Shown here one piece after another: positions 47,852 to 52,952 of a DNA stretch of 64,000 bases (position 1 is its first letter; each line of letters starts with the position of its first letter). A program made the position numbers and the translations under genes. Origin of the DNA: a bacterium (GTDB lineage: Bacteria; Auribacterota; UBA3054); NCBI GenBank assembly GCA_017616555.1, contig JAFZXZ010000032.1, positions 303,862 to 367,861 of the forward strand, written 5' to 3'. The notes under the pieces were generated by a model. That model was given only the letters and a program-made list of their open reading frames with translations, did not search any database and was not told the DNA's origin.

Positions 47852-48877
47852 TCAACGGTTGGGAACGATGATGGTTTGACCGATCCTGAGTTTGTCGCTG
47901 CTGGCGCCGTTCATGCTCATCAATTCCTCAACGGAGGAGTTGAAGCGCTTGGCAAGTTTCCAGTAGCTGTCGCCGGCCTGAACGGTGTAATTCTGCGTTC
48001 CGGAGGCGGCGGGGGCAGCGGCAGCCTGCTGCGTCTGCGCGGGCTGTACGACCGAGGAGATGGAGGCGCCTACTTCTTTGGTCTGAGAAGGTTCATTAGA
48101 GACGGCAGCCTTCTCACCGGGGATCTGGAGAACCTGGCCGACTTTCAGGATCTGGCTGCGGGAAATGCCGTTGACTTCACAGAGGTCGTTGACCTTGACG
48201 CCGAATTTGCGGGCGATCCTGATCAGGTTGTCGCCAGCCTGGACGGTGTAGGTATTGCCGCTTGTGACCGCGGACGGACCAACGTAGCCGCCCGAAGAGC
48301 TCTGGTTGCCTTGATAGACGTAGCCGGAGTTGGGCGCGGTAACAACAGAAGTCTCGGTCGCAGGCTTGGGCTGGAGGAAAGAGGAAGATTTGGTCGTGGC
48401 AGCAGTCTCGCTAGTCGTGCCGACAGGGGAGAGCTGCGTGGAGGAGCTGGCTTCTCCGAGGGCCGTCACGTCGCCAGTCGGGGGAGGAACGACGGAGATA
48501 GTCTCGCGGGGGCTCAAGGGTTCCAAAGTTTTGTCCGTGTCGGGGCCCCAGAGCGAGACGTTGCTGGTGGTTATGACGGAATCGTCGATGCTCTCTTCAC
48601 CTTTGTAGAGCGAATCATCGTTCTGGACTCTCAAGGGCTTTTGCATTTCCACAGAATCAACGTACGTGACCTGAGCGGGCGTCGATTCCGGGAAGTTATC
48701 GATGTCCTGATAGGAAGTGCCGATGGTGTTGAGATCTTTTTCGACCAGCGCTTCGATGGTGTCGGGTGAAGTCAGTTCAAGGGTGACGTCCGTGCGGGGG
48801 GTCTCCTTGGCGCAGCCGAAGAAGAAGATGCCCACAAGGCTTACCGTGAACAGGAAGATTAAGAATGATTTGTTCAT
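47852..48877 (-). CDS. LysM-domain lipoprotein within the dcw cluster
   Basis: The 341-residue protein starts at ATG 48877, preceded by GAGAGGAA. The signal segment KSFLIFLFTVSLVGIFFFGC ends in a lipobox-like FFGC, although the usual Leu at -3 is Phe. A long Ser/Thr/Pro-rich low-complexity region (~25-190) is followed by two LysM domains. The first is YTVQAGDNLIRIARKFGV (~200-245). The second is YTVQAGDSYWKLAKRFNSSVEEL (~290-338). LysM binds peptidoglycan. It could link new septal wall to a membrane or serve a hydrolase. No catalytic domain is visible. Its position between murD and ftsW suggests a division role, but this is inference. Confidence 0.85.
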   Translation of the reverse strand: MNKSFLIFLFTVSLVGIFFFGCAKETPRTDVTLELTSPDTIEALVEKDLNTIGTSYQDIDNFPESTPAQVTYVDSVEMQKPLRVQNDDSLYKGEESIDDSVITTSNVSLWGPDTDKTLEPLSPRETISVVPPPTGDVTALGEASSSTQLSPVGTTSETAATTKSSSFLQPKPATETSVVTAPNSGYVYQGNQSSSGGYVGPSAVTSGNTYTVQAGDNLIRIARKFGVKVNDLCEVNGISRSQILKVGQVLQIPGEKAAVSNEPSQTKEVGASISSVVQPAQTQQAAAAPAASGTQNYTVQAGDSYWKLAKRFNSSVEELMSMNGASSDKLRIGQTIIVPNR

Positions 48878-48901
48878 ATGGTTCCTCTCTTTCAAGGTTG
48901 G

Positions 48902-50303: not shown

Positions 50304-51395
50304 TTATTGCAGTTTCAATGTCGCCAGGCCCAGGATCGCGAAGATGAGGGCTAAGATGAAGAAACGCATTGTGACCCTGGTCTCGGGCCACCCTTGCATT
50401 TCAAAGTGATGATGGATGGGGGCCATGCGGAAGACTCTCTTCTGCGTCAGCTTGAAGGAAGCGACCTGAATGATGTCGGAGCAAGCTTCCATGACGAAGA
50501 TAAAACCTATGATGAGAAGCAGCACTTCCTTCCTCACCAAAAGCGCCGTTATGCCGATGGCGCCGCCTAAAGCCAGGCTTCCGGTATCGCCCATGAAGAC
50601 CATGGCCGGATGCGCGTTGTACCACAGGAATCCCAGCCCGGCGCCCACGAGGGCGGACAGAAAGACCGTCAGTTCCGCGGCGTCCCTGGCGTAATAGATG
50701 TAGAGATATTCCGCGATCTTGGAGTTGCCGGCGCAATAGGCGAGGATAAGGTAGGCCAGGGCAGCGATCGTTACCGTACCGATGGCGAGCCCGTCCAGCC
50801 CGTCCGTGAGATTGACGGCGTTGGAAGTGCCGACGATCACAAGCATAGCGAGGATGATGTAGTAGTAGCCGAGGTTTTCGATGACAGGATTCTTAAGGAA
50901 CGGCACATAGAAAGGAAAGCTCTCCTTGCCATAGAAAATGAGGATGAGAGCCGCAGCCAGAGCCACCAGCGACTGCACGACGAGCTTCGTTTTGCCGGAA
51001 ATACCGGCAGCGTTTTTCTGCTTGACCTTGGTGTAGTCGTCGGCGAAGCCCAGAAGGCCTAAAGAGATGAAAACGCCCAGGGCGAGCATCGTATATAGAG
51101 AGAATTGCGCCCAGAGAAGCGTGGAGACCGTTACAGCCAAAAGGATCAATATGCCGCCCATGGTCGGGACGCCCTGCTTGTTCTTGTGAAGAAGGTGCAA
51201 AGGCGGGCATTCGTCGCGTCTGATCTCCTGGCCGATCTTCATCATGTACAGCCAGCGGATAAGGGAGGGGGCCAGGATAAGGCTGATGACAAGCGCTGTC
51301 ACCGCCGCCATCGCGGAGCGCACCGAGATATACTTGAAGACATGGAAAGCCGGAACGCTTTCGCTTAGCCATCCGAAGAAAACGTAGTAGAACAT
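50304..51395 (-). CDS. mraY: Phospho-N-acetylmuramoyl-pentapeptide transferase
   Basis: The 363-residue polytopic enzyme (about ten transmembrane segments) transfers phospho-MurNAc-pentapeptide to undecaprenyl phosphate, forming lipid I. GFADDYTKVKQK carries the catalytic Asp pair. NAVNLTDGLDGLAIG, FMGDTGSLALGG and the C-terminal HHHFEMQGWPETRV are all conserved. The Shine-Dalgarno AAAGGA lies inside the end of the preceding small ORF, whose stop is one base away, so mraY translation could be coupled to that ORF or influenced by the hairpin 32 bases upstream. Confidence 0.98.
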   Translation of the reverse strand: MFYYVFFGWLSESVPAFHVFKYISVRSAMAAVTALVISLILAPSLIRWLYMMKIGQEIRRDECPPLHLLHKNKQGVPTMGGILILLAVTVSTLLWAQFSLYTMLALGVFISLGLLGFADDYTKVKQKNAAGISGKTKLVVQSLVALAAALILIFYGKESFPFYVPFLKNPVIENLGYYYIILAMLVIVGTSNAVNLTDGLDGLAIGTVTIAALAYLILAYCAGNSKIAEYLYIYYARDAAELTVFLSALVGAGLGFLWYNAHPAMVFMGDTGSLALGGAIGITALLVRKEVLLLIIGFIFVMEACSDIIQVASFKLTQKRVFRMAPIHHHFEMQGWPETRVTMRFFILALIFAILGLATLKLQ

Positions 51396-51396
51396 A

Positions 51397-51585
51397 TTAT
51401 CCTTTGACCTCGCTTATTGACAGGATGTTGCGGCCCGAAGACAAACAGTCCTCAGACCGCAACCGGAATGCGGATGTAGAGACGCTGCCCTTTTTGGTGT
51501 GTGTGTTCGTGTAGGGGGAAGGGAGAAGCAGTTCGCCAATCACCGCACACATTCCGTTCCTGTATTTATTGTTTGTATTTTTCAT
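51397..51585 (-). CDS. Candidate 62-residue ORF between murF and mraY (uncertain)
   Basis: This frame begins with an ATG that overlaps the murF stop by four bases (ATGA), as other genes here do, and ends one base before the mraY ATG. It therefore fills the gap exactly. The product would be about 62 residues, polar, rich in Ser, Thr and Asn, with two Cys; no motif is recognised and no membrane segment is seen. There is no Shine-Dalgarno sequence. Codon use looks less regular than in neighbours. A strong RNA hairpin (51427-51463) lies inside it, so the stretch may instead be an untranslated regulatory element. Chance occurrence of a frame of this length is not negligible. Confidence 0.35.
   Translation of the reverse strand: MKNTNNKYRNGMCAVIGELLLPSPYTNTHTKKGSVSTSAFRLRSEDCLSSGRNILSISEVKG
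51427..51463 (-). promoter_or_regulatory. 16-bp RNA hairpin upstream of mraY
   Basis: On the minus strand GTTGCGG-TCTGAGGAC, loop TGTTT, GTCTTCGGG-CCGCAAC pairs along all 16 positions. Three pairs are G-U in the dcw-sense RNA. In plus-strand RNA they would be A-C mismatches, so the fold is specific to the dcw transcript. No T-run follows, so it is not a standard terminator. The hairpin ends about 31 bases before the mraY start. Confidence 0.7.
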
Positions 51586-52952
51586 TGGTTGTTTTTGAAC
51601 ATTTCGTAGAAATAGTCTTCCAGTTTGTTGGCGCGGGACCCTTTGAAGAGCACCGCGTCGTCAGCCTTGACGTATGCTTTCAGGGCTTCCAAGACGTCCT
51701 TTGGCTCGCAGACCGCGACAAGGCAGCCGCTCTTGGCTTCTTTTGCTCCGGCAGCGTAATCCTCGGCGTACTCGCCGGTCACGAAGAGCGCATCCAAAAA
51801 TTGCGCCGCGAATTTGCCGAGCTCATAGTGGGCGCTCTTGGCTTTCTCGCCAATCTCCAGCATGTCGCCGAGGAGAGCGGCTTTGCGGCCCTTAACATTG
51901 AGTTCCTTTAGCATTGTGAGCGAGGCCGCCATGGAATCGGGGTTCGCGTTGTAGCAGTCAAGGATGAAGCGTGCGCCCTTGTGCTCGTGCATTTCGTTCC
52001 TTAGCCTTTCGCCCTTGACGGATTCCAAACCGGACTTCAAAGTCGCCAAATTGACGTCTTCCGTCAAAGCGTAGGCGCCGGCCGCGGCTCCCGCAATGTT
52101 GCTGGCGTTGTAGGCGCCGAGGACGGGGACGGTCAATTCTACGCACCCCATCGGCGTTTTCAACGTGCCCGTCAATCCTCTTTCACCCTCTTCTTTTATT
52201 ACGAATTCAAAATCTCCGCCTTTGCCGAAACTTACGATGTTCAGATCAAGACGCTTCGCCATTTCGGAAAGTTTTTCAAAGAAGTCGCTGTCTATTGGCA
52301 GCGCCACTTTCCCGCAGGGCGGCACGCCGCGGAAGATCTCGGCTTTGGCAAGCGCGATGTTCTCCCTGCTGCCAAGGAATTCTATGTGAGCGCTTCCGAC
52401 GTTTGTTATGATGGCCGCGTCGGGGTGGGCCAGGCGGCTAAGGGCAAGGATCTCGCCCTTGTGGTTCATGCCCATCTCAACAACGGCGTAGCGGTGATCT
52501 TCGCAGAGTCTGAGGAGCGTAATGGGAAGCCCTATATCGTTGTTGAGGTTCCCTTCCGTAACGAGCGTTTTGCCCAGCGTCTGAAGGATTGAACCGAGCA
52601 TGTTTTTGGTAGTAGTCTTGCCGCAGGAGCCGGTTACGCCGATCATCGGTATCTGAACTCGCGCCCTCTGATAGGCAGCGAGATCCTGCAGGGCCTTCAC
52701 GGTGTCAACCACGCGGTAGCAGGCCAGTCCTTCCGGAGCTTCGCAGCTCAGGATGCAGGCGGCGGCTTTGCCGTCCAAGGCTTTCTTGGCGACGGCGGGG
52801 GAGTCTCCTCCCCTGATGCCGACGAAAAGATCGCCGGGCTCCAGTTTCCTGGTGTCGCAAGTGACGCCCATAGGTTCCTTCGGTTCATTTCCTGTGAAGG
52901 AGAAGGTTCCGCCCAGAGCGGTTCTGATGTCTTCGTGAGTGAACTTAAGCAT
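51582..52952 (-). CDS. murF: UDP-N-acetylmuramoyl-tripeptide-D-alanyl-D-alanine ligase
   Basis: The 456-residue Mur ligase adds the D-Ala-D-Ala dipeptide. The ATP-binding motif is GVTGSCGKTTTKNML (Cys replaces the common Asn). EMGMNHKGEI, TNVGSAHIEFLGS and DCYNANPDSMAASL are diagnostic for MurF. The N-terminus has FTHEDIRTALGG and VTCDTRKLEPGDLFVGIRG. It overlaps murE by eight bases and its stop overlaps the small ORF by four. No ddl gene for making D-Ala-D-Ala is present in the window. Confidence 0.97.
   Translation of the reverse strand: MLKFTHEDIRTALGGTFSFTGNEPKEPMGVTCDTRKLEPGDLFVGIRGGDSPAVAKKALDGKAAACILSCEAPEGLACYRVVDTVKALQDLAAYQRARVQIPMIGVTGSCGKTTTKNMLGSILQTLGKTLVTEGNLNNDIGLPITLLRLCEDHRYAVVEMGMNHKGEILALSRLAHPDAAIITNVGSAHIEFLGSRENIALAKAEIFRGVPPCGKVALPIDSDFFEKLSEMAKRLDLNIVSFGKGGDFEFVIKEEGERGLTGTLKTPMGCVELTVPVLGAYNASNIAGAAAGAYALTEDVNLATLKSGLESVKGERLRNEMHEHKGARFILDCYNANPDSMAASLTMLKELNVKGRKAALLGDMLEIGEKAKSAHYELGKFAAQFLDALFVTGEYAEDYAAGAKEAKSGCLVAVCEPKDVLEALKAYVKADDAVLFKGSRANKLEDYFYEMFKNNQ

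Follow-up and report, generated by a model that had tools for sequence, protein, structure and literature searches.

A conserved structured RNA between murF and mraY, with a loop complementary to the dnaA leader, is a candidate trans-acting regulator

In the 64,000-nt stretch of DNA that we analysed (hereafter the window), murF and mraY of the division and cell-wall (dcw) cluster are separated by 186 bases, as the first-pass annotation had claimed and as gene calls with TIGR01143 and TIGR00445 bear out. The gap is spanned by a 62-codon ATG frame, also described in that annotation, whose ATGA overlaps the murF stop:

50304..51395, minus strand: mraY, the downstream gene (TIGR00445)
51582..52952, minus strand: murF, the upstream gene (TIGR01143)
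51397..51585, minus strand: 62-codon open frame spanning the gap (ORF list; pN/pS ~1; no Pfam match)

The width of this gap is unusual compared with other orders of the phylum, in which murF-mraY spacing is mostly -25 to +35 nt. Four genomes of other orders have gaps of 116-232 nt, with no match to our models of the RNA described below (R1 for the genus of the window, R2 for other genera of its order). The gaps of G039 and G038, both from other orders, are 232 and 119 nt long, repeat-rich, strongly self-complementary and unrelated to this RNA. Elsewhere in the dcw cluster, the ORF list has a gene (47852-48895) between murD and ftsW whose predicted product resembles a lipoprotein and carries two LysM-like repeats.

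When the frame was followed through the relatives, as had been proposed, it turned out to be open in all eight genomes of the genus, at 62-64 codons, with indels that are multiples of three and a stop that invariably lies 1 nt before the mraY ATG. Its amino acids are nonetheless unconstrained: pN/pS is ~1 (for example pS 0.29 and pN 0.24 between G000 and G007), in contrast to mraY, which is under strong purifying selection (pS 0.59, pN 0.08). Since synonymous change in the frame is also below that of mraY, it is the nucleotides rather than the amino acids that are conserved. Purifying selection on amino acids, our test for a conserved small protein, was thus not detected in the gap frame, and a Pfam search with the peptide gave zero matches, which speaks against the earlier suggestion of a small division protein. 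The open frame may instead serve as a translational bridge or coupling to mraY, and if such coupling holds, one might speculate that ribosomes crossing the frame compete with folding of the RNA, making this a control point.

In the dcw sense, the gap region folds at -59.7 kcal/mol (z -2.6), and none of 200 dinucleotide shuffles was as low. The hairpin singled out by the first-pass annotation, GUUGCGGUCUGAGGAC-uguuu-GUCUUCGGGCCGCAAC (51427-51463), does comprise 16 pairs, three of them G-U on the dcw-sense strand and A.C on the other, and it proved to be only one arm (P3) of a larger structure, in which P2 forms a long arm bearing a large open loop:

51420..51563, minus strand: whole structured RNA, P1 to P1', a three-way junction of 144 nt (conserved in 8/8 genus genomes; covariation 0/500 shuffles)
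51558..51563, minus strand: P1 5' strand ACAGGA, pairing with 51420-51425 (pair 10-156 varies)
51420..51425, minus strand: P1 3' strand UCCUGU (consensus fold, covariation)
51534..51556, minus strand: P2 5' side CGGAAUGUGUGCGGUGAUUGGCG (consensus fold; invariant within the genus)
51464..51484, minus strand: P2 3' side CGUCUCUACAUCCGCAUUCCG (consensus fold)
51427..51463, minus strand: P3, the 16-bp hairpin (variable sequence, pairing kept)
51506..51518, minus strand: loop segment A CCCCCUACACGAA, a one-mismatch complement of the dnaA leader segment UUCGUGUAAGGG
51483..51505, minus strand: loop segment B CACACACACCAAAAAGGGCAGCG, complement of GCYCUYUUUGGUGUGUGUG in the dnaA leader of relatives

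Across the genus alignment, 99.7% of pair cells are standard and seven pairs (24 cells) have changed on both sides, so that the stem pairing, which had been put forward for checking, is conserved with compensatory changes. The covariation score was unreached in 500 shuffles and fell from 0.22 to 0.01-0.09 when the partners were slid against each other. P3 is the most variable arm by sequence and is still paired, with five double-change pairs in helices 6 and 7, and pair 10-156 of P1 is A-U, G-U or G-C depending on the genome. G-U pairs are numerous on the dcw strand, which argues that the RNA is read from that strand. The most conserved part of the gap RNA is the loop, UCCCUUCCCC.UACACGAACACACACACCAAA, with 31 of 32 columns invariant in the genus and most positions predicted to be unpaired (probability 0.79-0.98). 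The whole element lies 27-33 nt from the mraY start. The concerns that the stems might be unconserved or the segment a dispersed repeat did not materialize: there is one copy per genome, and a second match of 20-21 nt proved to be the dnaA leader. Together with conservation across the order, the covariation strongly supports the view of the first-pass annotation that a functional dcw-sense RNA element, and not filler, occupies the gap, and from these comparisons we regard it as practically certain that a real RNA element is encoded here.

All eight genomes of the genus, whose records, as far as found, originate from the ruminant gut, have the RNA in their murF-mraY gap. Other genera of the order were reached through MraY and the same gap was then examined; an RNA of the same architecture, diverged in sequence, was found in six of seven genomes from three families (G008, G009, G010, G012, G013 and G014), in gaps of about 200-415 nt, while from the seventh (G011) the mraY gene was not recovered. 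This RNA has covariation of its own (13 double-change pairs, 0/500 shuffles), and its loop reads about CCMCCACACCGAAACCAAACACAAACCGCA. Model R1 gave zero matches beyond the genus and R2 zero beyond those other genera, so that by these models the other orders of the phylum are without the RNA. An Rfam scan of the gap RNA returned zero families even at E<=10, leaving no match to a known riboswitch aptamer family; each of the eight genomes has its 6S RNA (RF00013) at another locus, and the gap gave no match to it. No exact match to either conserved stretch was found in viral contigs.

The main clue to function is complementarity between the loop and the dnaA leader. Besides the RNA itself, blastn against the order returned a 20-21-nt match in four genus genomes, located upstream of dnaA (DnaA identified by PF00308) and oriented such that the two RNAs are complementary. 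A pattern scan for TTTGGTGTGTGTG revealed an exact occurrence in the dnaA leader of all seven genus genomes having dnaA, and no further mismatch-free site apart from the RNA's own antisense strand. G000, the window's own assembly, gave no dnaA match, probably because it is incomplete (84%), and the target is thus known only from sister species. For each of the seven genomes the predicted duplex between the RNA and the dnaA leader reached -50 to -58 kcal/mol, and none of 200 shuffles was as low; shuffled leaders gave about -26 +/- 4 kcal/mol and the antisense leader only -20 to -27. When complementarity was scanned over essentially the whole 2.07-Mb genome of G005, the one genome covered in this way, on both strands, the dnaA leader was the best site, with 24 contiguous pairs and a score of 57, compared to 42.5 for the runner-up and 29-42.5 for 12 shuffled loops. 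The dnaA region of G005, with the same leader, occurs on two contigs, C4 and C6, probably through assembly redundancy.

In the genus, the dnaA leader extends about 130-140 nt from a promoter-like TTTACA. Two islands in it are conserved, GCYCUYUUUGGUGUGUGUG and UUCGUGUAAGG, the latter with slight degradation in G001 and G003, and a variable hairpin lies between them. The first island pairs with the adjacent loop segment; the second, which holds the AAGG ahead of the GUG start, is complementary at all but one position to loop segment CCCCNUACACGAA, so that the pairing would cover the dnaA Shine-Dalgarno, which in relatives lies within UUCGUGUAAGGG. The opposite outcome, in which the RNA would free a hidden dnaA start site, was considered and dropped, as folding gave no consistent release. 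If the pairing is true, the dnaA leader of the window species is expected to carry GCCCUUUUUGGUGUGUGUG, followed by UUCGUGUAAGG (or close to it) at the Shine-Dalgarno.

Loop and leader also change together. Genus loops read AAAGAGAGC, AAAAAGGGC or AAAAAGAGC and are matched by leaders reading GCUCUCUUU, GCCCUUUUU or GCUCUUUUU, with the exception of G004, which has one mismatch. Only two loop-leader pairs covary within the genus and G004 breaks one of them, and because only two pairs change, we consider this covariation, taken alone, to be suggestive. In the clade of G005-G007, own loop-leader pairs gain about 10 kcal/mol over pairs formed across clades, whereas in the other clade of the genus own and neighbour pairs are similar in energy. 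Stronger evidence comes from the comparison between genera, where loop and leader both differ and complementarity is retained. For each of the six genomes of other genera that have dnaA, the best-scoring complement was located 26-30 nt past the -10 hexamer, the promoter being of the TTTACA or TTTACT type; this complement reads UGCGGUUUG in G008, G009, G012 and G013, GUUUGGUUUUCGGU in G010 and GUCUUUGGUUUGUGUUUGGCUUC in G011, whose leader was tested with the loop of G008. These complements score 23-38, compared to <=19 in 19 dnaA regions of other orders without the RNA, and shuffles reach such scores in 0 to 27 of 1000 cases, G008 alone being weak (27/1000). Pairing in these genera spans a short 9 to 14 nt, and more in G011, again with the RNA of G008, and by duplex energy over the whole leader G008 and G010 were not significant (9 and 65 of 200). 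If the pairing is true, the murF-mraY RNA of G011 itself would be expected to pair with GGUUUGUGUUUGGCUUCAG. In these genera the dnaA site is near the mRNA 5' end and far from the start codon, which excludes blocking of the ribosome site as a mechanism shared by all; here the pairing could act via mRNA stability or leader structure. Directly before the dnaA start of the other genera lies a DnaA-box-like sequence (TTGTGGATAAC / TTGTGAATAAC), possibly reflecting autoregulation or a nearby origin.

Related words were seen at two further genes of the genus. Over the Shine-Dalgarno of thyX (TIGR02170, PF02511) lies TTTGGAGTGTGTG, with one mismatch to TTTGGTGTGTGTG, in 8/8 genomes. This leader block (C1:21087-21099 in G000) is invariant and 12/13 complementary to the RNA loop, and in all eight genomes a small, variable hairpin and a stretch of conserved TTGACAGRGATGRTAAGATG precede it. 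In G005-G007, a one-mismatch word occurs just downstream of nrdG (TIGR02491), before a terminator-like hairpin; the TCTTTTGGGTGTGTGTGTTTTGGTATG between gene and hairpin could be an RNA target or a decoy. In the genome-wide ranking of G005, nrdG scores 39 and thyX about 27 (by our own count, with the same weights), values that are individually unexceptional. A comparable site was not seen by eye at thyX of the other genera, and we rejected the idea that thyX is a target throughout the order. Both thyX and nrdG, which share the theme of DNA precursor supply, are kept as weaker candidate partners. A scan for GGTTTGTGTTTGG gave one-mismatch matches without a pattern by eye, and the reversed control was uninformative, the word being the same backwards.

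Around the RNA of the window no convincing promoter or terminator was found. Promoter-like sites directly adjoin P1 in G012 and G008, and in G012 the RNA is followed by a T-rich tract. Most simply, the RNA would be processed from the dcw mRNA; it may accumulate as such a fragment, as a transcript of its own or within the mRNA. Hfq was not found in G005 by a weak test.

Several known RNAs offer precedents. SroC, an sRNA of enterobacteria, derives from the gltIJKL polycistron and acts by base pairing as an Hfq-associated sponge of another sRNA. The gap RNA, compared with it by Rfam scan only, likewise lies within a polycistronic mRNA and differs from SroC in that the latter is a sponge and Hfq-associated. 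Closer in target is EcpR1 of Sinorhizobium meliloti, a trans-acting sRNA whose conserved loop pairs with the dnaA mRNA leader and which represses dnaA and a second cell-cycle gene; it is encoded downstream of divK-pleD as its own transcript, with two hairpins and a GC-rich loop, and is confined to Rhizobiales (PMC4414408). Akin to EcpR1, the gap RNA is structured and exposes a strongly conserved open loop matched to the dnaA mRNA leader, but it sits inside the dcw operon, forms a three-way junction with a CA-rich loop and belongs to an unrelated lineage. Rfam gave no match at E<=10, which bears on homology assuming that the EcpR1 family is in Rfam, and architecture and loop differ from the published description. 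UpsM of Rhodobacter sphaeroides originates in the dcw 5' leader, ahead of mraZ, and has a Rho-independent terminator at its end; this sRNA is proposed to act in trans and to be cleaved by RNase E, and dnaA is not mentioned in the searched text of that report (PMC5089854). Like UpsM, the gap RNA comes from the dcw transcript, but from between murF and mraY and without a clear terminator. In Bacillus subtilis, dnaA expression is lowered by ArrA, which is cis-encoded opposite dnaA and antisense to its leader (PMC12112137); the gap RNA shares the complementarity to the dnaA 5' leader, but is encoded at a distant locus. By analogy, the gap RNA would work like EcpR1, ArrA and UpsM, yet with its different locus, structure, sequence and lineage it appears not to be a member of any of these.

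Akin to such regulators, the gap RNA combines a conserved secondary structure with an open conserved segment that is complementary to a distant mRNA and has been kept through evolution, and we assign a probability of about 0.7 to the reading that it is a structured regulatory RNA acting in trans on dnaA mRNA by base pairing. Complementarity is symmetrical, however, and the RNA lies inside an operon close to the mraY start, so that the dnaA leader might conversely regulate the dcw mRNA, through processing or mraY translation, with the gap RNA as its target. We consider this unlikely, because it is the dcw side that is stably folded and presents an invariant open loop like known sRNAs, because the dnaA side carries the Shine-Dalgarno in the genus, and because possible extra partners such as thyX and nrdG would fit a single common regulator. 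An effect in cis, as a riboswitch or another mRNA element for mraY or operon stability, would account for the fixed position upstream of mraY across the order. In the window, AUCCU of P1 is complementary to the AGGAU before the mraY ATG, such that opening of P1 would allow UCCU to pair with the mraY Shine-Dalgarno and the complementarity to dnaA would be secondary. This is the one part of the earlier proposal of mraY control that gained some weak support, by eye and in one genus. By inspection of the gap sequences the pairing is not retained in other genera, and a cis element leaves unexplained why the dnaA leader matches the invariant loop in every genus; we regard it as improbable.

Very improbable, in our judgement, is that TTTGGTGTGTGTG is a protein-binding DNA site shared by dnaA and the dcw gap, with the RNA match as a by-product. 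The same word is found at dnaA, thyX and, in three genomes, nrdG, but the two segments that are adjacent in the RNA are about 30 nt apart and separated by a hairpin at dnaA, the word differs between genera while complementarity is retained, the copy in the dcw gap belongs to the loop of an RNA with covarying pairs, and at thyX and nrdG the sites occupy the ends of the mRNA rather than positions upstream of promoters. The most far-fetched of these readings is that the frame in the gap encodes a conserved small protein: the openness of the frame in every genus genome, with its in-frame indels and its stop next to mraY, would fit, but substitution is unconstrained relative to mraY, the peptide has no Pfam match and the frame may be kept for translational coupling instead. 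The specific functions proposed by the first-pass annotation were thus not supported.

Our preferred reading, of an RNA acting in trans on dnaA mRNA, was reached by comparing draft genomes of uncultured bacteria, in which structure, conservation, complementarity and the joint change of the two partners can be followed at the level of sequence. According to this model, P1, P2 and P3 would keep the large CA-rich loop open, and the loop would pair with the dnaA 5' leader at one segment or at two. That this pairing is real in vivo seems quite likely to us. In the genus, coverage of the Shine-Dalgarno by the downstream segment would, as the simplest outcome, reduce DnaA synthesis, with repression arising from ribosome blocking and possibly recruitment of an RNase; we lean, with less assurance, towards a regulator that lowers DnaA. 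Since the RNA is inside the dcw transcript, its level would follow the expression of cell-wall and division genes, coupling replication initiation to envelope growth. A more far-reaching version is possible, though we hold it doubtful: a new dcw-embedded RNA family would couple envelope growth to replication, with the dcw transcript, whole or as a fragment, pairing with the mRNAs of dnaA and, in the genus, also of thyX and nrdG, and so setting initiation and dNTP supply, while ribosome traffic on the frame would decide on the availability of the loop.

It has long been asked how bacteria adjust the initiation of replication to cell growth. RNA control of dnaA is known from a few species (EcpR1, ArrA) and a dcw-derived sRNA from another (UpsM), and none that we found in the literature joins both. 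If our reading is true, the coordinated change of two distant RNA loci would make this a clean case, in which an RNA that probably links cell-wall building to DNA replication would provide, from within the division and cell-wall operon, a direct wire to dnaA.
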